DNA of 64,000 bases. Source: Actinomycetes bacterium (GTDB lineage Bacteria > Actinomycetota > Acidimicrobiia > Acidimicrobiales > Ilumatobacteraceae). The translations under genes and the position numbers were made by a program. Positions 11,126 to 32,695 of the stretch are shown here, one piece after another. The first letter of the stretch is position 1; each line of letters opens with the position of its first letter. The stretch covers positions 620,001-684,000 of the forward strand of contig JAIOPC010000014.1 of assembly GCA_021414085.1 (NCBI GenBank), given 5' to 3'. The notes beneath the pieces are model-generated. The model saw only the letters and a program-made list of their open reading frames with translations, searched no databases and was not told the origin of the DNA.

Positions 11126-13855
11126 TCAGACGATTGCGGGGTTGGATGCTTCGGGGTCGATGCCGTATTGCTCCATCGCCGCGTGTAGCTCGGCGGGGCC
11201 GGACAACCCTTCGGCGGCCAGCGCGCCGAGCACGGCCAACACCACATGGCCGGTATCGACCTCGAAGAAGTGACGCAATGCTTCGCGTGTGTCGCTGCGG
11301 CCCATGCCATCGGTTCCCAGCGGCACGAAGGTGCGGCCGGGTAGGAAGCGTGCGACCTGTTCCGGCACGATCTTCATGAAGTCGGTAACCGCGACGATCG
11401 GGCCTTTCGCCTCTGCGAGCAACTCGGTCACTAACGGCACACGTGCCGGGTTGCTGGGGTGCATTCGGTTCCAACGTTCGGCAGCGAGCGCGTCTTCGCG
11501 CAACGCCTTGTATGAAGTCGCCGACCACAGCTCGACACCGATACCGAGCTTGGCGAGCTCCTCGGCTGCAGCGTGCGCCGCGCCTTGCGCCGACCCGCTG
11601 AACAGCACGGTCGCGTGGCGCAGCATCTCGGGCGGCGCGGGCTTCCAGCGATAAAGGCCGCGCACGATGTGTGCCGGGTCGAGCTCGGCTGGCATCGCTG
11701 GCATCGGATAGTTCTCGTTGTACAGCGTGAGGTAGTAGAAGACGTCGCGATCAAGGCCGGCGGTGCGTTCCTCGTCGGTGCCATACATGCGGGTGATGCC
11801 TGCCTGAATGATCGCCGCCACCTCAAACGCAAAGGCGGGGTCGTAGGCCTGGCACGGCGGCACGGTGCTGGCCAACACCAGCGAGTGCCCGTCTTGGTGT
11901 TGCAAGCCTTCGCCCGCCAACGTCGTGCGACCAGCGGTCGCGCCCAGCAAGAAGCCGCGCACTCGTGCGTCGGCCGCTTGCCAAATCAAGTCGCCGACGC
12001 GCTGAAAACCGAACATGGAATAGAAGGTGTAGAAGGGAATCGTCGGAACGCCGCGAGTGGCGTACGCCGAGCCAGCGGCGATAAAGCTGGCCAGCGAGCC
12101 AGCTTCGGTGATGCCTTCTTCCAGAATCTGTCCCTGTGCACTCTCGCTGTAGCTCAGCAACATGTCGTGGTCGACGGGCTGATACTTCTGGCCCTGCGAG
12201 GCGTAGATCTTCAACTCGGGGAACAGCGAGTCCATACCGAAGGTGCGGCCCTCGTCGGGGATGATCGGTACGACGTATTGGCCGATGTTCTCGTCGCGCG
12301 CCAAGTTGCGCAATAGGCGAGTGAAGCCCATCGTCGTGCTGACTGCCTGATTCGCAGAACCCTTGCGCAGTTCCTCGAAGGTGGTGTCGAGCGGCAAGCC
12401 GACGACCTTGCGCGGCCGCACGATGCGCTTGGGAATGCTGCCGCCGAGTGCCCGGCGGCGTTCCATCATGTACTGGAACTCGACGCTGTCGCGCGACGGG
12501 CGGAAGTAGGGGAGCGCATCGTCGGCGAACGCCGAGTCGGGGATTTCGTCGTGCAGGTGCAGTCGGTCGCGCAACGCCATCAGCTGCGTCTCGTTCATCT
12601 TCTTGATCTGGTGCGTCGAGTTGCGGCCCTCGATTTCCGGGCCGAGCGTCCAGCCCTTGATCGTCTTGCACAGCAACACGGTGGGTGCACCGGAGCCGAG
12701 GTTCTCGGTTGCTGCCTTGTACGCGGCATAGAGCTTGCGATAGTCGTGGCCACCGCGCGGCAGGTTGAGTAGATCGTCGTCGCTAAGATGCGCGACTAGC
12801 TGGCGCAGGCGCGGATCCGGGCCGAAGAAGTCGTCGCGAATGTAGGCGCCGTTCTCGACGCTGTAGCGCTGGAACTGTCCGTCGACCGTGGTGTTCAACT
12901 GATTCAGCAGCACGCCGTCTTTGTCGTTGGCGAGCAGCGCGTCCCACTTGCTGCCGAGAATGACTTTGATCACGTTCCAGCCGGCCCCGCGGAAGACGGC
13001 TTCCAGTTCTTGGATGATCTTGCCGTTGCCGCGCACCGGGCCATCGAGGCGCTGCAGGTTGCAGTTGACCACGAACACCAGGTTGTCGAGCTTCTCGCGA
13101 CTGGCGAGCGTGATGGCGCCGAGTGTCTCCGGTTCGTCGCATTCGCCGTCGCCTAGGAACGCCCACACGCGGCTGCCGGTGGTGTCGTCGAGTTGGCGGT
13201 TGAGCAGGTAGCGGTTGAAGCGCGCGTGGTACAGCGCGCTGATCGGGCCGAGACCCATGCTGACCGTCGGGAACTCCCAGAAGTCGGGCATCAGGCGCGG
13301 GTGGGGGTAGCTGCTGAGGCCAGCGCCGCCGCGACCGATCTCGCGCCGGAACTGTTCCAGGTCGGATTCGTGCAGTCGCCGCTCGAGGAAGGCGCGCGCG
13401 TAGATGCCTGGCGTCGCGTGACCCTGGAAGTAGATGTGGTCGCCGGCGTTGCCGTCGTCCTTGCCACGGAAGAAGTGGTTGAACCCGATCTCGTACAGGC
13501 TTGCCGAGCTGGCGAACGTGCTGAGGTGGCCGCCGATGCCTTCTTCGTGCTTGTTCGCGCGCACCACCATCATCGCTGCGTTCCAGCGCACGAACGCCCG
13601 GATACGACGCTCGATGTATTCGTCGCCGGGGAACCACGGCTCGGCTTCGCGCGGAATCGTGTTGACGTACGGCGTGCTCACGGTTGCCGGGAAGCTGACC
13701 TGCGCCTCGTTCGCGTGCTCGAGCAACTTGCCGAGCAGGAACCTGGCGCGCGTCTTGCCCTGAATCTCGATGACGGCATCGAGGCTTTCCATCCACTCCT
13801 CGGTCTCGCCAGGGTCGCTGTCGGGGAGTTGGTTGACGTAGCCGTCGAAGATCAT
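11126..13855 (-). CDS. aceE: Pyruvate dehydrogenase E1 component, homodimeric type
   Basis: 909 aa; GHIYFQGHATPGIYARAFLERRL-like region, FLGDGECDEPETLGAI thiamine-PP motif, IIPDEGRTFGMDSLFPELKIYASQGQKYQPVDH. Confidence 0.95.
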   Translation of the reverse strand: MIFDGYVNQLPDSDPGETEEWMESLDAVIEIQGKTRARFLLGKLLEHANEAQVSFPATVSTPYVNTIPREAEPWFPGDEYIERRIRAFVRWNAAMMVVRANKHEEGIGGHLSTFASSASLYEIGFNHFFRGKDDGNAGDHIYFQGHATPGIYARAFLERRLHESDLEQFRREIGRGGAGLSSYPHPRLMPDFWEFPTVSMGLGPISALYHARFNRYLLNRQLDDTTGSRVWAFLGDGECDEPETLGAITLASREKLDNLVFVVNCNLQRLDGPVRGNGKIIQELEAVFRGAGWNVIKVILGSKWDALLANDKDGVLLNQLNTTVDGQFQRYSVENGAYIRDDFFGPDPRLRQLVAHLSDDDLLNLPRGGHDYRKLYAAYKAATENLGSGAPTVLLCKTIKGWTLGPEIEGRNSTHQIKKMNETQLMALRDRLHLHDEIPDSAFADDALPYFRPSRDSVEFQYMMERRRALGGSIPKRIVRPRKVVGLPLDTTFEELRKGSANQAVSTTMGFTRLLRNLARDENIGQYVVPIIPDEGRTFGMDSLFPELKIYASQGQKYQPVDHDMLLSYSESAQGQILEEGITEAGSLASFIAAGSAYATRGVPTIPFYTFYSMFGFQRVGDLIWQAADARVRGFLLGATAGRTTLAGEGLQHQDGHSLVLASTVPPCQAYDPAFAFEVAAIIQAGITRMYGTDEERTAGLDRDVFYYLTLYNENYPMPAMPAELDPAHIVRGLYRWKPAPPEMLRHATVLFSGSAQGAAHAAAEELAKLGIGVELWSATSYKALREDALAAERWNRMHPSNPARVPLVTELLAEAKGPIVAVTDFMKIVPEQVARFLPGRTFVPLGTDGMGRSDTREALRHFFEVDTGHVVLAVLGALAAEGLSGPAELHAAMEQYGIDPEASNPAIV

Positions 13856-18189: not shown

Positions 18190-20175
18190 ATGACAACCGC
18201 GTCCACGGCCGCGCTGGTGCAGGCCGATCAGGCTCACCGCCTTCCTTATCTTCCCGCGCTCGACGGGTTGCGTGGTGTTGCTGTTGCCGTTGTTGTTGCG
18301 TTCCACGCACATTGGCTGACCGGCGGCTACCTCGGTGTCGATCTGTTCTTTGTCCTATCGGGGTTCTTGATCACGCGGCTGTTGTTGAATGAGTACGCCG
18401 ATTCGGCGCGGATCGATCTCGCCAAGTTCTGGAAGAGGCGTGCTCGTCGGCTGCTGCCAGCACTGATCCTTGTCACATTGTTCGCGGCGGTCGTCGAGCG
18501 TGCGCGCGGCACGCTGGATGGTCCGACCGGCGGCCGTCGTGACGTGATCGGCGCCTTGACCTACTCGTCCAACTGGCTGCGCATGAGTGCGGAAGCCGGA
18601 TATTGGAGGCAATTCGCGCGTCCAGCCCTGCTCGATCACATCTGGAGTCTTGCGATCGAGGAGCAGTTCTATGTGGTGTGGCCGCTCCTCGTGTTCGGCC
18701 TCTTGCGGTTTGTGCGCTCAGATCTCGGACGAGTGCTCATACTCGGAATCGCGTCGTGCGGCCTTGGGCTGTGGGCGTTACGGGTTTTCAGCGTGACCTC
18801 CGATGCGAACCGGATCTACATGGGCACCGACACCCGGGCCGTTGCATTGCTGCTCGGAGCCACCGTTGCGGCCATCGCTCATCGACGGTCTGTCATCTCT
18901 CACGGCTCGGTTCCGTCGAACAGCGCCGTACTGCGGGTCGCCGCCGTGCCTGCACTGCTGGTGCTCGCACTCATGATCGTTCGCATGCGCGGTGACGCCT
19001 TGATCACCTACGAAGGCGGCCTGCTGCTGTGTTCACTCGCCGGGGCCATCGTGGTCGCCGCTGGCGCGCTCGAGCGACCACCTGCAGTCTTTCGGATCTT
19101 CACCGCGGCTCCGCTGCGCTGGTTGGGCCTACGCAGTTACGGCATCTACCTGTGGCACTGGCCGATCATGGTCGGCCTACGCGTCGCCAGCCGGCCGACT
19201 AGTGCCTCGTGGAGGCGACTCGCCGCTGTTGTCATCACCTTGGTGGTCGCGGAGATCTCCTACCGATTCATTGAGCAGCCGATCCGACGAAAGGGTCTGC
19301 TCGCACTGCGCCGTCCTGCTCGCACTGTCGCACTTGGCTTAGGAATTGCATCACTGTCGCTCGCGGTCGTGTTCATCCCCACCAAGGCCGTTTCGATGGT
19401 TACTGCTGTCCCGCTACCGACATCGGGTCCGGCACCCGCCGCGCCGTCGTTCCCGGTGCGCGCATTGCCCGATGAGGGGTTGCCGAAGGTCATGTTTGTC
19501 GGAGACTCGGTCGGCTTCTATCTGGGGCGGCAGGCAAACGCCGAACGGGAACGGTTGGGCATCAAGGTCGTCAACGAAGCCCACAACGGGTGTCCACTGT
19601 CGGATACGCCGCTACGTCGTCGAGGCGCGAAGTCGTCGGTGCCATTGGTGTTCGCGCCCGAGTGTCAGGAGGCTGTGCGCGCCTACGGCGACACCGTGGC
19701 AGACGCGCAACCTGATGTTGTGATTATGGTGTTTGGAGCCTCGTTCCTGGACGAGAACGAAATTTCGCCAGGGGAGTGGCACGCCCCGTGCACGGCCGAG
19801 TTCGACGGCTGGTTCCAGGATCAGATCACTCGGAGTGTCGAAGCGTTGTCATCGACAGGTGCGACCGTGTACTGGGCGACAACGCCGTACTACCGCGGCG
19901 AGGTCGACGATAAAACTCCGACGTTTGATGATCAGGTCGATTGCGAGAACGAAGTCGCGCGAACGGTCGCCGCGCAGAGCAACGGGGTACTGGGTGTACT
20001 TGAACTCGGTCAGTGGACCTGCCCCACCCGTGACTGCCTTACTGAACGCGATGGCTACGAGCTTCGGTTCGACGGCTTCCACTACATCGATGAGGGCGCT
20101 GCGCTTGCGAACATCTGGATGCTGCAGCAGATCTTCGACCCTCTGCCGTGGATGCGCGCCGTCGCGAGCTCTTAG
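18190..20175 (+). CDS. OafA/YrhL-type acyltransferase with C-terminal SGNH domain
   Basis: YLPALDGLRGVAVAVVVAFHAHW; DLFFVLSGFLITRLLL; C-terminal VMFVGDSVGFYLG and GFHYIDEGAALA. Confidence 0.9.
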   Translation: MTTASTAALVQADQAHRLPYLPALDGLRGVAVAVVVAFHAHWLTGGYLGVDLFFVLSGFLITRLLLNEYADSARIDLAKFWKRRARRLLPALILVTLFAAVVERARGTLDGPTGGRRDVIGALTYSSNWLRMSAEAGYWRQFARPALLDHIWSLAIEEQFYVVWPLLVFGLLRFVRSDLGRVLILGIASCGLGLWALRVFSVTSDANRIYMGTDTRAVALLLGATVAAIAHRRSVISHGSVPSNSAVLRVAAVPALLVLALMIVRMRGDALITYEGGLLLCSLAGAIVVAAGALERPPAVFRIFTAAPLRWLGLRSYGIYLWHWPIMVGLRVASRPTSASWRRLAAVVITLVVAEISYRFIEQPIRRKGLLALRRPARTVALGLGIASLSLAVVFIPTKAVSMVTAVPLPTSGPAPAAPSFPVRALPDEGLPKVMFVGDSVGFYLGRQANAERERLGIKVVNEAHNGCPLSDTPLRRRGAKSSVPLVFAPECQEAVRAYGDTVADAQPDVVIMVFGASFLDENEISPGEWHAPCTAEFDGWFQDQITRSVEALSSTGATVYWATTPYYRGEVDDKTPTFDDQVDCENEVARTVAAQSNGVLGVLELGQWTCPTRDCLTERDGYELRFDGFHYIDEGAALANIWMLQQIFDPLPWMRAVASS

Positions 20176-21065
20176 CGCGCCAGCACCGCGCGCAATGCGA
20201 CCTCGAGCGTTTCGTGCTGAAACTGGAAGCCGCTGGCCTGCAGCGCGCGGGGCAACGCACGCTGACCGCTGAGTAGCAAACCGTCGACCAGCTCGCTGCC
20301 CAGCAACAGCTTCGGCCCAAACGACGGAACGGGTATGAGCGAGGGTCGGTGCAAGACCTTGCCGAGTGTCTTGGCGAACTCGCTGCCGGTGACGGGCGTC
20401 GGCCCGGTCAGGTTGACGGCGCCGCGTACGTCGCCGGTCAACAGATGACGGATGGCGGCGACCTCGTCGGGTAGCGAGATCCAGCTCTGCCACTGGCGAC
20501 CATTGCCGAACCTGCCGCCGACACCCAGTTTGAACAGCGGCAGCATCTTGCCCAGCGCGCCGCCCTTGCCTGCGAGCACGATGCCCGTGCGCAGATGGAC
20601 AACACGAACCCCACCCGCCTCCGCTGCGCTGGTCGCTGCTTCCCACTGGCGACAAACGTCGGCGAGGAAGTCGCTGCCTGCCGGTGAGGTTTCGTCGAGT
20701 TCGCGTTCGCCGCTGTCGCCGTAGTAGCCCACGGCCGATCCGCTGAGCATCACCTTCGGGCCGTTAGCGCAGCCCACGATCGCCGACGCAAGTAGCTCCG
20801 TCGAACGGACTCGGCTGTCAAGAATCTCAGCCTTGTAGGAATCGGTCCAGCGATGATCGCCGATGCCGGCGCCCGCGAGATGAACGACGGCGTCGGCACC
20901 TTCCAACGCGCCAGCCGAAAGGCTGTCAGCCTTCGGGTCCCACTGGATCTCTCCTTGGCCTGCAGAACGGCGAACGAGCTTGACGACTTCGTGGCCATCG
21001 GCGGTGAGTGACGTGCATAGGGCTGAGCCGATCAGTCCGCTGGACCCTGAGACAACGACGCGCAT
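20172..21065 (-). CDS. TIGR01777 family (YfcH-like) epimerase/SDR protein
   Basis: MRVVVSGSSGLIGSALCTSL; DAVVHLAGAGIGDHRWTDSYKAEILDSRVRST; SGSAVGYYGDSGERELDE. Confidence 0.92.
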   Translation of the reverse strand: MRVVVSGSSGLIGSALCTSLTADGHEVVKLVRRSAGQGEIQWDPKADSLSAGALEGADAVVHLAGAGIGDHRWTDSYKAEILDSRVRSTELLASAIVGCANGPKVMLSGSAVGYYGDSGERELDETSPAGSDFLADVCRQWEAATSAAEAGGVRVVHLRTGIVLAGKGGALGKMLPLFKLGVGGRFGNGRQWQSWISLPDEVAAIRHLLTGDVRGAVNLTGPTPVTGSEFAKTLGKVLHRPSLIPVPSFGPKLLLGSELVDGLLLSGQRALPRALQASGFQFQHETLEVALRAVLAR

Positions 21066-21088
21066 GCGTTGAGCGTACGCTTGCAATC

Positions 21089-22406: not shown

Positions 22407-22468
22407 TTTGCTGCGGTACCGTGAAGGTTTAGCAATCAGCCGCAACGAGTGAATTGGAGCCGGAATCG

Positions 22469-23905
22469 ATGGAGCAGCACTTCGACCTCGTCGTCATCGG
22501 CGGTGGGCCAGGGGGCTACGGCGCCGCGCTGTATGCCACTTCCGCCGGGCTGAACGTCGCTCTCGTCGAGAAGGATGTGCTGGGCGGCACCTGCCTCAAT
22601 CGCGGCTGCATTCCCGCCAAGGCATTTCTCGAGACTGCTGCCACGCAGCGCCACGTCAACCACGCGGCCGACTTTGGTATTGAGTCAAACACTCCGGGTG
22701 CCACCTTCTCTGTCAACTTCGCGGCTGCGCAAGCGCGTAAGCAAAAGGTCGTCGACGGCATCGTCAAGAGCCTGACGGGCCTCATCAAATCGAAGAAGAT
22801 CACCGTGCTCGACGGCGTCGGCAAACTCGGCGCGAACCGCACGGTCACCGTCACGCATCCCGACGGCACGTCCAGCACGATCACCGGCGGCAACGTTGTG
22901 TTGGCCACAGGCAGCGTGCCGCGCACGATTCCTGGCTTCGAGCCAGCCGGCCCGGTGATGACGAGCGACGAAGTGCTGATGCTCGACCACTTGCCGGGGC
23001 GTGTTGCCGTCATCGGTGGCGGCGCCATCGGGTGCGAGTTCGCCAGCACGTTTGCCGACCTCGGCTCGACGGTCACGATTCTGGAAGGCATGCCGAAGGT
23101 GCTGCCGGGGCTGGATTCCGATGTCGCCAACGTGGTCGTGCGCAGCTTCAAGAAACGTGCCATCGACATCAAAACCGACATCAAGATTCTCGGACACACA
23201 CCGTTCACCGACGGCACCGGGACGACGGTGCATTATTCGGCCGACGACGGCAAAGGCGCGTACGCGCAGAACCTGGAAGTCGATGCAGTCGTCGTCAGCA
23301 TCGGGCGTCGCCCGTACGCCGATCAGCTTGGTCTTGAAGGCACAGCGGTGAAGTTGACCGAGCGCGGCTTCGTGCAGGTCGACGAGTTCTGCTTCACCGG
23401 CGAGCCTGGCGTGTACGCCATCGGCGACCTGATCGACACCCCGGCGCTCGCACACGTTGGCTACGCCGAAGCGATCCTCGTTACCAAGCACATTCGCGGC
23501 GAGAACCCAACACCGATTGCTTACGACCGTGTGCCCTGGGCCATCTACTGCCACCCCGAAGTGGCGTTCGTTGGCCCCAGCGAAGAAGCCGCCACCGCCG
23601 CCGGTCACAGTGTCGTTGTCGCCAAGCATCAGTTCCGAGCCAACAGTCGGGCGCAGATCCTCGGCGAGCTCGATGGCTTGGTGAAGGTGATCGCGAAGAA
23701 GAACGACGATGGCACCGCCGGGCAAGTGCTGGGCGTGCACATGGTTGGGCCGTGGGTGACCGAGCAGCTGAGCGGCGGTTACCTCGCGGTCAACTGGGAA
23801 GCGACGGTTGCCGAAGTAGCCGAATACATCCAACCGCACCCAAGCCTGACCGAACTCTTCGGTGAGACGATGCTGTCGCTCACCGGTCGCAGTCTGAATT
23901 CATAA
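22469..23905 (+). CDS. lpdA: Dihydrolipoyl dehydrogenase (E3)
   Basis: DLVVIGGGPGGYGAAL; GGTCLNRGCIPAKAFLE redox disulfide motif; HPSLTELFGE C-terminus. Confidence 0.95.
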   Translation: MEQHFDLVVIGGGPGGYGAALYATSAGLNVALVEKDVLGGTCLNRGCIPAKAFLETAATQRHVNHAADFGIESNTPGATFSVNFAAAQARKQKVVDGIVKSLTGLIKSKKITVLDGVGKLGANRTVTVTHPDGTSSTITGGNVVLATGSVPRTIPGFEPAGPVMTSDEVLMLDHLPGRVAVIGGGAIGCEFASTFADLGSTVTILEGMPKVLPGLDSDVANVVVRSFKKRAIDIKTDIKILGHTPFTDGTGTTVHYSADDGKGAYAQNLEVDAVVVSIGRRPYADQLGLEGTAVKLTERGFVQVDEFCFTGEPGVYAIGDLIDTPALAHVGYAEAILVTKHIRGENPTPIAYDRVPWAIYCHPEVAFVGPSEEAATAAGHSVVVAKHQFRANSRAQILGELDGLVKVIAKKNDDGTAGQVLGVHMVGPWVTEQLSGGYLAVNWEATVAEVAEYIQPHPSLTELFGETMLSLTGRSLNS

Positions 23906-23917
23906 GGAGAAACGCAA

Positions 23918-25351
23918 ATGGCCGACGTCATCCTGCCGCAACTGGGCGAGACAGTCACCGAAGGAACAATCACGCGCTGGTTCAAGAAGGTGGGCGACAC
24001 CATCGCCGCCGACGAGCCGTTGTTCGAGATCAGCACCGACAAGGTCGACACGGAAGTGCCGTCGCCGGTTTCGGGCACAGTGACGGAACTGCGCGTCGCT
24101 GAGGGCGACACGGTTCCGGTTGGTGCCGTCATTGCTGTTGTGCAGGTTGGAGCCTCAGCGCCCGCGCCGGCCGCGCCTACTCCTCCAGCACCGGTCGTTG
24201 AAGCGCCTGTTGTTGAGGCACCGGTTGCGGCCGCGCCAGCGCCGGTCGTTGAAGTGCCGGTCGTTGAAGCGCCGGTTGCTCCGGCCCCCGCGCCCGCTGC
24301 ACCGGTGTTGCCTCCGCTCGAAGTTGCCGTTGCAGCTTCACCCGCGGTCGAGGCCGCGCCACCGACGTCGAGCGGGGAACATCGACTGCTGTCGCCCGTT
24401 GTGCGGCGCCTCGTCTCCGAGCACGCGATCAATCCCGACGACATCACGGGCACAGGCCCCGGTGGCCGCATCACGCGCGACGACGTACTGGACTTCATTG
24501 ATCGCAAGCAGTTGAGTGCTGGCGCCCCGGCGCCGGCGCCAGCGGCGCCCGCGCCTGCCGCTGCCGCCCCTGCCGCTGCCGCACCGGCACCCGCCGCGTC
24601 CGCGCCGGCTGCACCGGTGCCTGTCGTGCGCACCGGCGAACGCGACACCACTGTTGCGCTGAGCAAGATCCGCAAGCTCACAGGCAGTCACATGGTCATG
24701 AGCAAGGGAGTCAGCCCGCACGCGTTCAGTGTTGTCGAGGTCGACTTCGCCAACGTCGATGTCACGCGCGGCAGCGTCAAGAGCGAGTGGAAGGCGGCCG
24801 AGGGTTTCGGCCTTACCTATCTGCCGTTCATCACCCGTGCTGTGGTCGATGCACTTGTGGAGTTCCCGCACCTCAACGCCAGCGTCGCCGACACCGACCT
24901 GATTGTGCACAACTTCATCGATATTGGCATCGCCGTCGACCTCGACTACGAGGGTCTGTTGGTGCCGGTTGTGCGTTCGGCGGAAGGTAAGCGGCTGCGT
25001 GCGATCGCTCGCGAGATCAACGATCTTGCGGCCCGCACCCGCACCCGCAAACTGAGCCCCGACGAAATCATTGGCGGCACGTTCACGATTAGCAACAACG
25101 GCTCGGCCGGCAGCGTTTTGACGATGCCGATCATCAATCAGCCGCAGGTCGCGATCCTCTCCACGGACGCAATCGTGCGCAAGCCGGTGGTCGCTCGCTT
25201 GGCCGATGGTGGCGAAGCCATCGTTATCCATCCCGTTGGCAACCTGGCGATGAGCTGGGATCATCGCGCGTTCGATGGCGCCTACGCCGCCGGCTTCCTG
25301 GTGCGGGTGAAGGAACTACTCGAGACCCGCGACTGGTCACAGGAACTCTGA
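23918..25351 (+). CDS. 2-oxoacid dehydrogenase E2 (dihydrolipoamide succinyl/acyltransferase)
   Basis: Lipoyl domain EISTDKVDTEVPSPVSG; Ala/Pro linkers; E3-binding domain LSPVVRRLVSEHAINPDDITGTGPGGRITRDDVL; catalytic MSWDHRAFDGAYAAGFL. Confidence 0.93.
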   Translation: MADVILPQLGETVTEGTITRWFKKVGDTIAADEPLFEISTDKVDTEVPSPVSGTVTELRVAEGDTVPVGAVIAVVQVGASAPAPAAPTPPAPVVEAPVVEAPVAAAPAPVVEVPVVEAPVAPAPAPAAPVLPPLEVAVAASPAVEAAPPTSSGEHRLLSPVVRRLVSEHAINPDDITGTGPGGRITRDDVLDFIDRKQLSAGAPAPAPAAPAPAAAAPAAAAPAPAASAPAAPVPVVRTGERDTTVALSKIRKLTGSHMVMSKGVSPHAFSVVEVDFANVDVTRGSVKSEWKAAEGFGLTYLPFITRAVVDALVEFPHLNASVADTDLIVHNFIDIGIAVDLDYEGLLVPVVRSAEGKRLRAIAREINDLAARTRTRKLSPDEIIGGTFTISNNGSAGSVLTMPIINQPQVAILSTDAIVRKPVVARLADGGEAIVIHPVGNLAMSWDHRAFDGAYAAGFLVRVKELLETRDWSQEL

Positions 25352-25357
25352 ATCGGC

Positions 25358-27034
25358 GTGTCCTTTGATGGACGGCTCGACATGACGCTGCACGTTCGTT
25401 GGCTTGGCCGCGTGCCATACCGCGAGGCGTTGGCAGTGCAGCATGCGATGTTCGGCAATGGCCGCAACGATCACCTGCTGTTGCTTGAGCACCCGCACGT
25501 GTTCACGCACGGCCCGCGGGCCGATCTTGCCGCCAATGTGCGCGTCGAACCCGCGTCGGTGAACGCAGAGTTGGTGTCGGTGAAGCGCGGTGGCGACGTG
25601 ACGTATCACGGCCCTGGCCAACTCGTGGGGTATCCGATCGTCAATGTGCCCAACGCTCTTGGCGCCGCCGATCATGTGTGCACCATCCAACGTGTGCTGG
25701 TTGCGACGCTGCAGGAACTAGGCCTCGATGATGTCGGTTGCTTGTCCGACTACCCGGGCGTGTGGGTCGGTGTCAGTGGCGCCAACCCGCGCAAGATCGC
25801 AGCGATCGGTGTCCGGTTGGCGAATGGTCGGACCATGCACGGCTTCGCGCTCAATGTGTGCCCGGACATGCGTTACATGCGCGACTACATCGTGCCGTGT
25901 GGCATCGGCGACAAGCCGGTCACGTCGCTCGCCGAAGAAGGCATCAGCGTCGACATGCATCGCGTTGTCGAAGTTGTTGCGCGTCATGCTGGCGAAGCGT
26001 GGGGCGAGGGAATCGTTGAACGGCAGGAGGTCGCGTGGAAGCACCGACCGGAAGACCTGGCACCGTTCTCCCGTGGAGAAACAACTCCTGCGAGCAGAGC
26101 GACTGCTCGGTTGCAGCAAGCGGGCGTCCCTGACGGTCTTGCCATCGCAAGCCGCAAACCCGAGTGGCTGCGCCCAAAGGTGAAGCTCGGCAGCGGGGTC
26201 TTGCAGCTGAAGCAGACGGTGAGGGAGCACGGCCTTGTCACCGTGTGTGAAGAGGCAGGTTGTCCGAATCTCAGCGACTGTTGGGCCGACGGCACGGCCA
26301 CGTTCATGGTGCTCGGCGATCGGTGCACACGCGCATGTGGTTTTTGCTTGGTCGATACCAGCAAACCGCTTGCGCCGGCCTCTGACGAACCGGCCCGGGT
26401 GGCGGCGGCGATCTGCGAGATGGCGCTAGATCACGCCGTGCTCACGATGGTCGCGCGCGACGACCTAGCCGACGGAGGGTTCGCCCATGTCGCCGCGTGC
26501 GTGCGCGCAATCCGCGCGGTCAGCCCGCGAACCGCTATCGAAACATTGGTCAGCGACGCCAAGGGCGACGACGCCGCGCTGCACTTGCTGTTCGACGACC
26601 CGGCAAGTCGACCCGACGTGTTCAACCACAACATCGAAACTGTTGCAAGGCTGCAGCGAGCGGTGCGGCCAAGCGCTGGCTACGCCCGCAGCCTCTCGGT
26701 TCTCGCCCGGGCGAAGGCCGCAGGCTTGGTCGTCAAGACCGGCTTCATGCTCGGCCTCGGTGAGACCGACGACGAGATCGCCGGCCTGCTGGTCGACCTC
26801 GCCGCCATCGGCGTCGACATCGTGACGATTGGTCAGTACCTACGTCCCACCGATGGTCATTTGCCCGTTGCCCGGTGGGCGGAACCGAGCGAATTCGAGC
26901 GTTGGAAGGCGGCAGGTGAGTCCTTGGGGGTCGGCCACGTCGAGGCCAGTCCGCTGACCCGCAGCAGTTACCACGCGAAGCAAGCCGCAAACCTGGTGAC
27001 GACGGGAACCTCCGCCGCCGTTTCGTTCGTCTAA
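25358..27034 (+). CDS. LipB-LipA fusion: octanoyltransferase plus lipoyl synthase in one ORF
   Basis: LipB: RGGDVTYHGPGQLVGYPI, CGIGDKPVTSL. LipA: CEEAGCPNLSDCW, GDRCTRACGFCLVDT, RSSYHAKQ. One 558-aa frame without stop; GTG 25358 or ATG 25382. Confidence 0.93.
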   Translation: MSFDGRLDMTLHVRWLGRVPYREALAVQHAMFGNGRNDHLLLLEHPHVFTHGPRADLAANVRVEPASVNAELVSVKRGGDVTYHGPGQLVGYPIVNVPNALGAADHVCTIQRVLVATLQELGLDDVGCLSDYPGVWVGVSGANPRKIAAIGVRLANGRTMHGFALNVCPDMRYMRDYIVPCGIGDKPVTSLAEEGISVDMHRVVEVVARHAGEAWGEGIVERQEVAWKHRPEDLAPFSRGETTPASRATARLQQAGVPDGLAIASRKPEWLRPKVKLGSGVLQLKQTVREHGLVTVCEEAGCPNLSDCWADGTATFMVLGDRCTRACGFCLVDTSKPLAPASDEPARVAAAICEMALDHAVLTMVARDDLADGGFAHVAACVRAIRAVSPRTAIETLVSDAKGDDAALHLLFDDPASRPDVFNHNIETVARLQRAVRPSAGYARSLSVLARAKAAGLVVKTGFMLGLGETDDEIAGLLVDLAAIGVDIVTIGQYLRPTDGHLPVARWAEPSEFERWKAAGESLGVGHVEASPLTRSSYHAKQAANLVTTGTSAAVSFV

Positions 27035-28647: not shown

Positions 28648-30129
28648 TCAGAATGGGATGAGTTTCGTCACGGTGTTAGCGGCAGCGTTGGTGACCCAGA
28701 TGTTGCTACCGTCGAACGCAAGTCCATCTGGGCTGTCGCCGACGGTGACGGTCGCTACCACCGTATTGGTTGCCGGGTTGATCTTGGAGACCGTGTCGTC
28801 GGTGGCGTTAGCGACCCAAACGCTGGTGCCGTCGAAGGCGATCCCGCGAGGCCCGCTGCCGACAGCGACGTTGACGATGACCGCGCCGGTTGCCGGGTTG
28901 ACCTTGGAGACGGTGGTGCCGCCACTGTTGGCGACCCAGATGCTGGTGCCGTCGAACGCAATCCCGACCGGGCCGCTACCGACGGTGAACGGGCCGGAGA
29001 CCGCGTTGGTGCCAACGTTGACCTTGACGATGGTCGAGACGCCAAGGGCAACCCAAACGCTCGTGCCGTCGAATGCCATGTTCCCGGCTCCGCTGCCGAC
29101 AGCGACCGGCGTGTCGAGCGCGTTGGTTACTGGGTTGATCTTGACGATCGAGTTGTTACCGCTTTGGCTGACCCAGATGTTGCTGCCGTCGAATACGACA
29201 CCGAGGGGCAAACCGGAGACGGCGATGGTGTCGACAGCGTTCGTGGTGGCGTTGATCTTTGAGACCGATTCTCCACCAAGGTTGGCGACCCACAGGCTGG
29301 TGCCGTCGAAGGCGATGCCTCGTGGCCCGTCGCCGACATTGATCGTCGCAGTCACCGTGTTGCTCGCAGGGTCGATCTTGGAGACGGTGTCGGCGTTGTA
29401 GTTGGCAACCCAGATGTTGCTGCCGTCGGACGCAATGTTAACGGGTGCGCTCCCGACAGTGATGGTGGCGGCACGGCCGGGGTCTTGGTCCCAGCGCAGC
29501 ATCGCGATTTGTTCATCGGTGATGCGGTTGGCGGGGCCGGCGGGGCCGGTGAGTCCGGTTGGTCCGGTGGCGCCGGCGGGTCCGCTACCGCCAGCTTGGT
29601 AGTAACCGACCACGTCGGCGAGCAGGTTGACCGTCGCGCCTGCTGGGCCGCCACCGAAATAGAACAGGTTGAGCATCCCGGCGTTGCCGCCACTGGTGGG
29701 AAGTTGCACGGTGACGCTGTTGGGGATGACGGCGCCGTCTTCGAAGTTGAGATTCGAGGTGGCGGGGTCGCCGGCTGCGTCGCCGGGGCGCACCGACACG
29801 AAGCCGCCGGCGGTGGGTGACACGACGGTGACGTTGAGTACGACTGCGGTTGCGCCGTCGGGCACGACGATGGCGTTGCCGCCGATCACCGGGATCGATC
29901 CGGTGATGTCGAGTATGCGTGCGCTACCGGAGGTGAATGGGCCGCTGAGGCCAAGGCCGACACCGGCGCGTGTGTCGAGCACACGCGTGGGTGTGACTGG
30001 CACGAACACCGAGCCGCTGCTGGAGGCTTGCACTGCGTAGAGACCGCCGCCTCCGATTGCCACCGCAACCGCAGCACCGATCGCTGCCCAACGCGAACGC
30101 CACAATGGTGTGTTTTGTTTGGTGCCCAT
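28648..30129 (-). CDS. Surface protein: N-terminal DTR domain, short collagen-like linker, YVTN-type beta-propeller
   Basis: TPTRVLDTRAGVGLG; GPAGATGPTGLTGPAGPAN; repeated TVSKINPATN.V.ATV.VG..P.GIAFDGTSVWVAN. Confidence 0.85.
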   Translation of the reverse strand: MGTKQNTPLWRSRWAAIGAAVAVAIGGGGLYAVQASSSGSVFVPVTPTRVLDTRAGVGLGLSGPFTSGSARILDITGSIPVIGGNAIVVPDGATAVVLNVTVVSPTAGGFVSVRPGDAAGDPATSNLNFEDGAVIPNSVTVQLPTSGGNAGMLNLFYFGGGPAGATVNLLADVVGYYQAGGSGPAGATGPTGLTGPAGPANRITDEQIAMLRWDQDPGRAATITVGSAPVNIASDGSNIWVANYNADTVSKIDPASNTVTATINVGDGPRGIAFDGTSLWVANLGGESVSKINATTNAVDTIAVSGLPLGVVFDGSNIWVSQSGNNSIVKINPVTNALDTPVAVGSGAGNMAFDGTSVWVALGVSTIVKVNVGTNAVSGPFTVGSGPVGIAFDGTSIWVANSGGTTVSKVNPATGAVIVNVAVGSGPRGIAFDGTSVWVANATDDTVSKINPATNTVVATVTVGDSPDGLAFDGSNIWVTNAAANTVTKLIPF

Positions 30130-30232
30130 GACTGACAACTCCCTACATAGAGGCGAATTGTCGAAATCCCAAAGGGCGACGCCGGTGCGGCACCGTAACA
30201 GGTCTGGTCCTGCGACGTAGACAGAGGCTTGG

Positions 30233-32695
30233 TTACGCCCTTGGTCGTACGTTGTCTGGATCGAACAGTGGCTCGCGGCCTACTGTCGCCGCGACCATCT
30301 GGCCGAAGATCTTGATGTACACCTTCGTGCCCGGCGCCTCGAACTGTGGTCGCACGTAACCCAGTGCGACGCTCTTGTTCAAGGTGAAGCTCCATCCGCC
30401 CGAGGTGGCGAGCCCGATGTTGTTCGCACCCTCGCCGGCACCATCGAAGATCGACGAGCAGAACGGTGCGTCGGCGTCGCCTGGTTCGTCGAGCGTCATC
30501 GACACGAACCGCCATGCAGAACCCTTCGCCTTCTCGGCGACGAGCGCAGCCTTGCCGACGAAATCGGGCTTGGTGAGGTCGACGAAACGATCGAGCGATG
30601 CGTCGAATGGCGAGTATCCGATCTCGAGGTCGCCCTTCCACCCGCGGTAGCCCTTATCGAGTCGCAAGCTGTCGACTGCGTAGATGCCGAAGTCGCGGAT
30701 GCCGTGTCGTTCGCCCGCAGCCCAGATCGCTTCGTACAGCGCGGGCAGTTGGGCGTTCGCGGCGTGAAGTTCCCAACCAAGCTCGCCGACGTAGTTGACG
30801 CGTAGCGCGCGCACCGGGCCCACCGCGGTTTCGATGTCGCGCACCGAAAGCCACGGGAACGACGCGTTGTCGAGAGCGGTGGTAGTCACCTGCGCGAGCA
30901 CGTCGCGCGAACGCGGGCCGACGACGATTAGCGAACCGAAGGCAGCCGTGACGTTGGTGAGGGTGACCGAACCGTCGCCGGGCAGCGCAGCTTCCAAGAC
31001 ATCGAGGTCGTGCCACTCGGCGCTTGCCGCTCCGACGGCGTAGTAGTGCTGGTCGGCGATCTTGCTGAGCGTGAATTCGCTGAGCACCTTGCCGTCTGGC
31101 AGCAGCGCGTAGCAAAGCGTGACGCGACCGGTCTTGGGCAACTTCGTGCACAACAGCTGATCGAGATACGCCTCGGCGCCAGGACCCTTGATTTCGATCT
31201 TGGTGAAACCGGGCAGATCGAGCACTGCAACGCCGTTGCGCGCGGCGGCACACTCTTGCGCTACCTGCTCGCGCCATCCGTTGCGGCGAAAGAACGACAA
31301 CGAATGGTCGGTGACCGCGTTGGCGGTGCCGATGTTGGTGTCGAACCAGGTCGGCCGCTCCCAACCGCCCCGCGCGCCGAAGTAGGCGCCCTTCGCCTTC
31401 AGAGTTTCAAAGAGCGGCGATGTATACGCCGGGCGACCAGCTGGACGTTCTTCGAACGGGAAGCCCATCGCATATTCGTTCTGGTACACCTCGATCGCCT
31501 TGTCGATCGTGTACTGCGTGGTCGCGTAGTCCTTGTAACGGCGACGATCGATCGACCAGATGTCAATCGCGGGTCGGCCCTCGAGAATCCACTCGGCGAT
31601 TGCCTTGCCCGCGCCTCCACCCTGTGCGATGCCGAAGCTGAACGTGTTGCAGTGGAAGAAGTTGCGTAGGCCGCGCTCGGGACCAAGGTATGGGTTTCCA
31701 TCGGGCGCGTACGGAATCGGGCCATTGACGACGCGGGCGATGCCAGCATCGCCGAGCACAGGCACACGCTCGCCAGCGTCGAGGATCTGCGGTTCCAGCC
31801 GCTCGAGATCTTCGCTCCACAGCTGGTTCGCGAACTGATCGGGGATGCTGTCCTGCCACATCGCAGTGGCCTTCCACTCGTACGGCCCGAGGATGAAGCT
31901 GTTGCGCTCTTGGCGTAGGTAGTAACTGGTGTCGGGGTCGCGCAGCAACGGCAACGGTGTGTCGCGTGCGGCGAGCTCGGCGATTTCCTCGGTGATGTAG
32001 TACTGGTGCGACATGTGTGCGATGGGTAGGTGGCGACCGATCAGGCTCATCAACTCAGCGGCGCGGTAGCCGGCTGCGTTGACGACGATTTCGCAGTCGA
32101 TCGTGTGCTCCTCGCCGTCGGCGGTGCGCGATGTCACCGTCCACGCGTGGTTCGGGTGTTGCACCAGGCCGACGACGCGCTCGAAGCGCCGCACGCGGGC
32201 GCCCATCGCGCGCGCCGCGCGCGCCATTGCCTGCGTGATTTGCGACGGATCAATGTCGCCATCGAGCGGGTCCCACAATGCGCCGACCAGATCGTGCGTC
32301 TTCACCAGCGGATAGCGCTCGACGAGTTGCGCGGACGTCAGCATGTCGTAGCCCATGCCTTGCGCGTTGGCCATGCTGGTCACGTGGCGGAATTCGGCGT
32401 AGCGCTCGTCGCTGTGCGCCAAGCGCACCGAACCGGTGACGTGGTAACTGATCGGAAACTCGGGGTCCTTGGCTAGCTCGCGATAGAGGGCAGCGGAGTA
32501 CGACTGCACCTTCATCACGCTCCAGCTGGTGCTGTATGTCGGCACGTTGCCAGCGGCATGCCACGTGGAGCCGGACGTCAGCTCGTCGCGCTCCAGCAGC
32601 AACACATCTGTGCACCCCATTTTGGCCAGATGATAGAGCGTGCTGCAGCCGGCGATGCCGCCACCGATAACGACGATTCGTGCCTGATCATTCAT
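30233..32695 (-). CDS. FAD-dependent oxidoreductase with C-terminal GcvT domain (dimethylglycine/sarcosine dehydrogenase-like)
   Basis: IVVIGGGIAGCSTLYHLAKMGCTDVLLLERDELTSGSTWHAAG; GWERPTWFD; YRGWKGDLEIGYSPFDASLDRFVDL. Confidence 0.9.
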   Translation of the reverse strand: MNDQARIVVIGGGIAGCSTLYHLAKMGCTDVLLLERDELTSGSTWHAAGNVPTYSTSWSVMKVQSYSAALYRELAKDPEFPISYHVTGSVRLAHSDERYAEFRHVTSMANAQGMGYDMLTSAQLVERYPLVKTHDLVGALWDPLDGDIDPSQITQAMARAARAMGARVRRFERVVGLVQHPNHAWTVTSRTADGEEHTIDCEIVVNAAGYRAAELMSLIGRHLPIAHMSHQYYITEEIAELAARDTPLPLLRDPDTSYYLRQERNSFILGPYEWKATAMWQDSIPDQFANQLWSEDLERLEPQILDAGERVPVLGDAGIARVVNGPIPYAPDGNPYLGPERGLRNFFHCNTFSFGIAQGGGAGKAIAEWILEGRPAIDIWSIDRRRYKDYATTQYTIDKAIEVYQNEYAMGFPFEERPAGRPAYTSPLFETLKAKGAYFGARGGWERPTWFDTNIGTANAVTDHSLSFFRRNGWREQVAQECAAARNGVAVLDLPGFTKIEIKGPGAEAYLDQLLCTKLPKTGRVTLCYALLPDGKVLSEFTLSKIADQHYYAVGAASAEWHDLDVLEAALPGDGSVTLTNVTAAFGSLIVVGPRSRDVLAQVTTTALDNASFPWLSVRDIETAVGPVRALRVNYVGELGWELHAANAQLPALYEAIWAAGERHGIRDFGIYAVDSLRLDKGYRGWKGDLEIGYSPFDASLDRFVDLTKPDFVGKAALVAEKAKGSAWRFVSMTLDEPGDADAPFCSSIFDGAGEGANNIGLATSGGWSFTLNKSVALGYVRPQFEAPGTKVYIKIFGQMVAATVGREPLFDPDNVRPRA

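Follow-up and report, generated by a model that had tools for sequence, protein, structure and literature searches.

The assembly of lipoate by the octanoyltransferase LipB and the lipoyl synthase LipA is usually studied with the two enzymes as separate proteins. The locus described here raises the question of whether both can be joined in a single protein and, if so, how widespread and how old the joined form is. In the window (i.e., the whole stretch of 64,000 nucleotides that was analysed), we found one gene, lipBA, that begins with a GTG codon located 6 nt past the stop codon of the E2 gene and encodes 558 aa without any internal stop (Table 1). Translation could equally well begin at an ATG at 25382 (Met9), as relatives start 1-8 residues ahead of a conserved xxRWLG. 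The original prediction had placed LipB and LipA in one uninterrupted 558-aa frame directly after lpdA and the E2 gene; this holds, and all of the motifs that it quoted for the two enzymes were found in lipBA. The gene very probably encodes a bifunctional octanoyltransferase/lipoyl synthase that serves the adjoining E2 and GcvH, and that originated from a single ancient fusion by loss of the lipB stop codon.

Table 1. Coordinates of lipBA, its parts, and the genes upstream in the window.
Feature	Position (nt)	Strand	Basis
lpdA, dihydrolipoyl dehydrogenase (E3)	22454..23905	+	TIGR01350, 463.7 bits (cut-off 408.8)
E2 dihydrolipoyl acyltransferase, one N-terminal lipoyl domain (DKVDTEV)	23918..25351	+	Pfam
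lipBA, fused octanoyltransferase (LipB)-lipoyl synthase (LipA)	25358..27034	+	Pfam/NCBIfam matches; fused frame kept in relatives
LipB half, residues 10-216 (Lys146/Cys181 acyltransferase dyad, HGPGQ motif)	25385..26005	+	PF21948, PRK14345, alignment with 1w66
LipB catalytic lysine K146 (KIAAIG)	25793..25795	+	Matches KVAAIG lysine of 1w66; invariant in both alignments
LipB catalytic cysteine C181 (PCG)	25898..25900	+	Matches PCG cysteine of 1w66; invariant in both alignments
Junction and LipA N-terminal extension, residues 217-262	26006..26143	+	AlphaFold pLDDT, alignment with 5exi
LipA half, residues 263-543, radical SAM lipoyl synthase	26144..26986	+	TIGR00510 above cut-off; Foldseek with 5exk
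Auxiliary [4Fe-4S] cluster motif C297-x4-C302-x5-C308	26246..26281	+	Invariant in both alignments
Radical-SAM cluster motif C323-x3-C327-x2-C330	26324..26347	+	Invariant in both alignments
C-terminal RSSY motif R535-Y538, auxiliary-cluster serine region	26960..26971	+	Invariant in 23-sequence alignment; S537 in 49-homologue alignment

The Pfam domains identified in lipBA are LplA-B_cat (residues 21-210), LIAS_N (264-302), and Radical_SAM (318-478). Both halves score above the respective NCBIfam equivalog cut-offs, namely, PRK14345 for LipB (161.9 bits; cut-off 155) and TIGR00510 for LipA (348.1 bits; cut-off 310.25), and the LipB half also matches TIGR00214 (130.4 bits; cut-off 83.55). The LipB of Mycobacterium tuberculosis (1w66; EC 2.3.1.181), which aligns to residues 10-208, resembles the LipB half in fold (Foldseek TMt 0.85, 39% identity), in the Lys/Cys dyad, and in the PCG motif, but it is a stand-alone enzyme, whereas the LipB of the window forms the N-terminal part of a larger polypeptide. 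Similarly, the LipA half shares its fold, both Fe-S cluster motifs, and RSSY with M. tuberculosis LipA (5exi/5exk) and human LIAS (EC 2.8.1.8); a Foldseek comparison of the AlphaFold model with 5exk gave a TMt of 0.94 at 46% identity. These two lipoyl synthases also stand alone, whereas the N-terminal extension of the LipA in the window joins it to LipB. A fusion of an attachment enzyme in front of LipA is represented in NCBIfam by NF053790 (LplA_LipA_fuse; bifunctional lipoate-protein ligase/lipoyl synthase), but in that family an ATP-dependent LplA ligase takes the place of LipB. Assignment of lipBA to this family was rejected, as its score of 316.2 bits is below the cut-off of 800 and the match covers only model positions 331-605, which correspond to the LipA part.

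For the substrates, a whole-genome search with PF00364 identified the E2 in the window as the only lipoyl-type E2 of the source genome. The remaining two Biotin_lipoyl matches bear the biotin motif EAMKM, and the lipoyl targets of this genome are the E2 and one GcvH. The gene order lpdA-E2-lipBA is conserved in relatives, in which a 4-nt overlap between E2 and lipBA is frequent. This lipoylation block beside E2 and E3 is real and old, and the order lpdA-E2-lipB-lipA is found outside of the class as well. By analogy with the LipB and LipA enzymes that have been studied, the LipB half would transfer octanoyl from octanoyl-ACP to Cys181 as a thioester, with activation by Lys146, and then to the lipoyl-domain lysine of E2 or GcvH. 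The insertion of sulfur at C6 and C8 would then fall to the LipA half, through SAM radical chemistry and at the expense of its auxiliary Fe-S cluster. The sequence of events, with octanoyl transfer followed by sulfur insertion on the protein-bound octanoyl, is suggested by family knowledge, and both the octanoyl-ACP donor and the specificity for E2 and GcvH would be carried over from the same studied enzymes. We infer that one enzyme performs both steps in a fixed 1:1 ratio, and the joined sites may provide fixed stoichiometry together with proximity, such that an octanoylated lipoyl domain could be passed on locally.

The spatial relationship of the two halves was examined with AlphaFold, for which the full-chain pTM was 0.92 for the protein in the window and 0.88 for a second homologue (L230). 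By our own estimate, freely floating domains of such sizes are expected to give a pTM near 0.55, and the higher values suggest that AlphaFold predicts a defined two-domain arrangement. The predicted placement of the domains fits a hand-over between the two sites, although a direct hand-over of the lipoyl domain, like the substrate channelling that the original prediction had put forward as an inference, is speculative. In its strongest form, the protein would act as a channelling machine with fixed domains, in which a docked lipoyl domain goes from LipB to LipA unreleased and which has been kept throughout the class and reinvented in another actinobacterial lineage; we consider this conceivable but rather doubtful. 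In an analysis of APC-corrected mutual information among 166 sequences, 86 of the top 300 pairs are inter-domain; these are scattered, and phylogeny dominates the signal.

The junction itself bears on whether the gene yields one protein or two. In the model of the window protein, pLDDT values below 50 are limited to residues 1-5, 235-242 (nt 26060-26083), and 551-558, and the model of L230 has low confidence at residues 225-251. The alignment with M. tuberculosis LipA (5exi) starts at residue 239, and most of the apparent linker is therefore the N-terminal extension of LipA itself. Given this variable junction that is predicted to be disordered, cleavage or an internal LipA start could produce two proteins from one gene, and the fusion would then mainly fix their co-expression. 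A candidate start codon, an in-frame ATG/GTG, is present within the linker of 85 of the 97 homologues, such that free LipA may be made by internal initiation in some of them, and a linker start is accompanied by a Shine-Dalgarno-like site in 32 of the 97. However, neither the presence nor the position of these starts is conserved, high-GC DNA yields many GTG codons by chance, and the linker in the window contains only one TTG, without a Shine-Dalgarno-like site. Together with the confident inter-domain placement, which favours a stable two-domain protein, these observations make the production of two proteins improbable.

The sequences suggest that both halves are catalytically competent. In an alignment of 49 homologues, K146, C181, C297/C302/C308, C323/C327/C330, and S537 are invariant, and the same LipB dyad, six LipA cysteines, and S537 are also invariant in a 23-sequence alignment reaching ~41% identity. 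Moreover, a search of the source genome, of which ~3% is missing, found no second LipA and no second full-length LipB. We found no point in support of one half having degenerated into a docking domain only, and both the invariant residues and the lack of a substitute gene in the genome searched speak against it, which makes this explanation very unlikely. The source genome also encodes a weakly matching LplA/B-type domain in an ORF of 264 aa (L071 1312-2106, minus strand; 33.7 bits, with part of the model matched).

The whole class Acidimicrobiia, which comprises bacteria from soil and water, has the fusion as a fixed trait, and the intact loci that were checked are all fused. Of 41 near relatives, the 33 with good-quality genomes all have a match to lipBA, as do 231 of the 247 genomes sampled across the class. 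The open-frame column of the genome search reads through stops; therefore, frames were checked from stop to stop. The fusion was found in 99 of 99 loci (two being contig-edge pieces), in a further 38 of 38 loci of the class that were picked mainly for a split BLAST match, and in all 20 of the wide regions that were taken from different families. These sets overlap slightly and together cover ~145 genomes from over 50 families. In a scan of named contigs, the best 80 matches are all of the Acidimicrobiia-type fusion, and 79 of the 80 named loci are fused. Among the named records that have a class, most belong to Acidimicrobiia (Acidimicrobiaceae, Ilumatobacteraceae, Candidatus Microthrix, and Acidiferrimicrobium sp. 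IK). Some records instead carry the label Actinomycetes or Bifidobacterium breve (L162, L166, and L175, which encode the fusion, have the latter in their titles); these MAGs were probably misnamed or given loose names. One genome of the class (G129; locus L146) has a stand-alone LipB and no LipA was detected, which may be explained by loss, misbinning, or incomplete assembly.

The original prediction had named a missed stop or frameshift near nt 26060-26130 as a concern. The fusion stands after this check, as relatives down to ~41% identity hold both halves in-frame, and this conservation excludes a chance origin of the fused frame. Some assemblies do err at this locus, as seen in G245 (frameshifts in lipBA and also in E2) and L157 (an in-frame stop within LipB), but a sequencing or assembly artefact that removed a stop between two genes can be dismissed given that the fused frame recurs in those ~145 genomes, which were assembled independently of one another. 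Among these are single-contig genomes as well as one that lacks a MAG label (Acidiferrimicrobium sp. IK).

Outside of the class, the expectation that LipB and LipA are normally encoded by separate genes was borne out in the Actinomycetota sampled, and the two genes are often adjacent. In a phylum-wide sample of 397 genomes, those outside of the class among the matches listed have separate LipA frames or pairs with intervening stops, and none of the 15 outside-class loci with both genes within reach has a shared frame. Several of these loci (L095-L099) have lpdA, E2, lipB, and lipA in this order with gaps of 12-87 nt, and in another (L104) lipB and lipA overlap by 4 nt. In proteobacterial plasmid records, lipB and lipA are likewise neighbouring genes with a frame each. 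These neighbours in other Actinomycetota and Proteobacteria share the (E2-)lipB-lipA order and the reactions with the locus in the window, but have two reading frames, either apart or overlapping by 4 nt, instead of one. Six candidates for further fusions outside of the class (G675, G750, G557, G774, G308, and G383) were rejected because the stop-to-stop check found separate genes.

For the origin of the fusion, the fused sequences form one clade in the tree of the LipA half (SH-aLRT 94; 75/85 in a careful run) and in that of the LipB half (SH-aLRT 93). The fused halves are thus monophyletic for both domains, with one change per tree and moderate support (bootstrap 75%), and these trees favour a single ancient origin. 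In the most likely scenario, a single fusion event preceded the radiation of Acidimicrobiia and its product has been retained. Because the separate genes elsewhere are often adjacent in the same order, the joined frame most likely formed when an ancestral lpdA-E2-lipB-lipA operon lost the stop codon of lipB; stop loss in such a pre-existing operon is the simplest history.

A search of the sister classes identified one more real fusion, in G713 (L238 5348-6946). In its congener G696 (L248), lipB has a separate stop and overlaps the lipA start by 4 nt. In a DNA alignment of the two, G713 lacks stretches of 107 and 27 nt precisely at the junction; these gaps take out the lipB stop and the lipA start, and the frames are joined. 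This fusion is apparently recent and independent of that in Acidimicrobiia. Although found in one genome, it illustrates a deletion route to fusion through an event larger than a single-base error, and the pair provides a view of how LipB-LipA fusions arise.

LipB and LipA themselves are known, ordinary enzymes, and it is their permanent joining that seems to be undescribed. Such cases are given automatic names as 'Multifunctional fusion protein' in UniProt. No NCBIfam model of a LipB-LipA fusion was matched by any of the 49 members, and NF053790 is curated for LplA-LipA. Our literature search, which reached few subscription journals, found no paper describing the fusion. A survey of lipoate assembly across GTDB includes LplA-LplB fusions, and a term search of its text found no LipB-LipA fusion (PMC10332631). 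The presence of an intact covalent fusion across a class is evidence that LipB and LipA cooperate and could help to show how their steps are coupled; it also provides a natural single-chain enzyme for structural and channelling work, and a clean marker for Acidimicrobiia. The gene is an annotation trap as well, because pipelines that name it as lipoyl synthase alone will call lipB missing.

Several other genes on the minus strand of the window were noted. An AceE-like pyruvate dehydrogenase E1 of 909 aa (11126-13855; assigned by eye) is located ~9 kb from the E3-E2-lipBA block. A gene for an SDR/epimerase with DUF1731 (20172-21086) is placed divergently from the block, and its homologue stands between E2 and lipB in L104 and L110. 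On the other side, there are genes for a secreted-looking protein with YNCE-like beta-propeller repeats after a short collagen-like GPAGATGPTGLTGPAG tract (28648-30138) and for an 820-aa protein with DAO and GCV_T domains, of the dimethylglycine/sarcosine dehydrogenase type (30233-32695).
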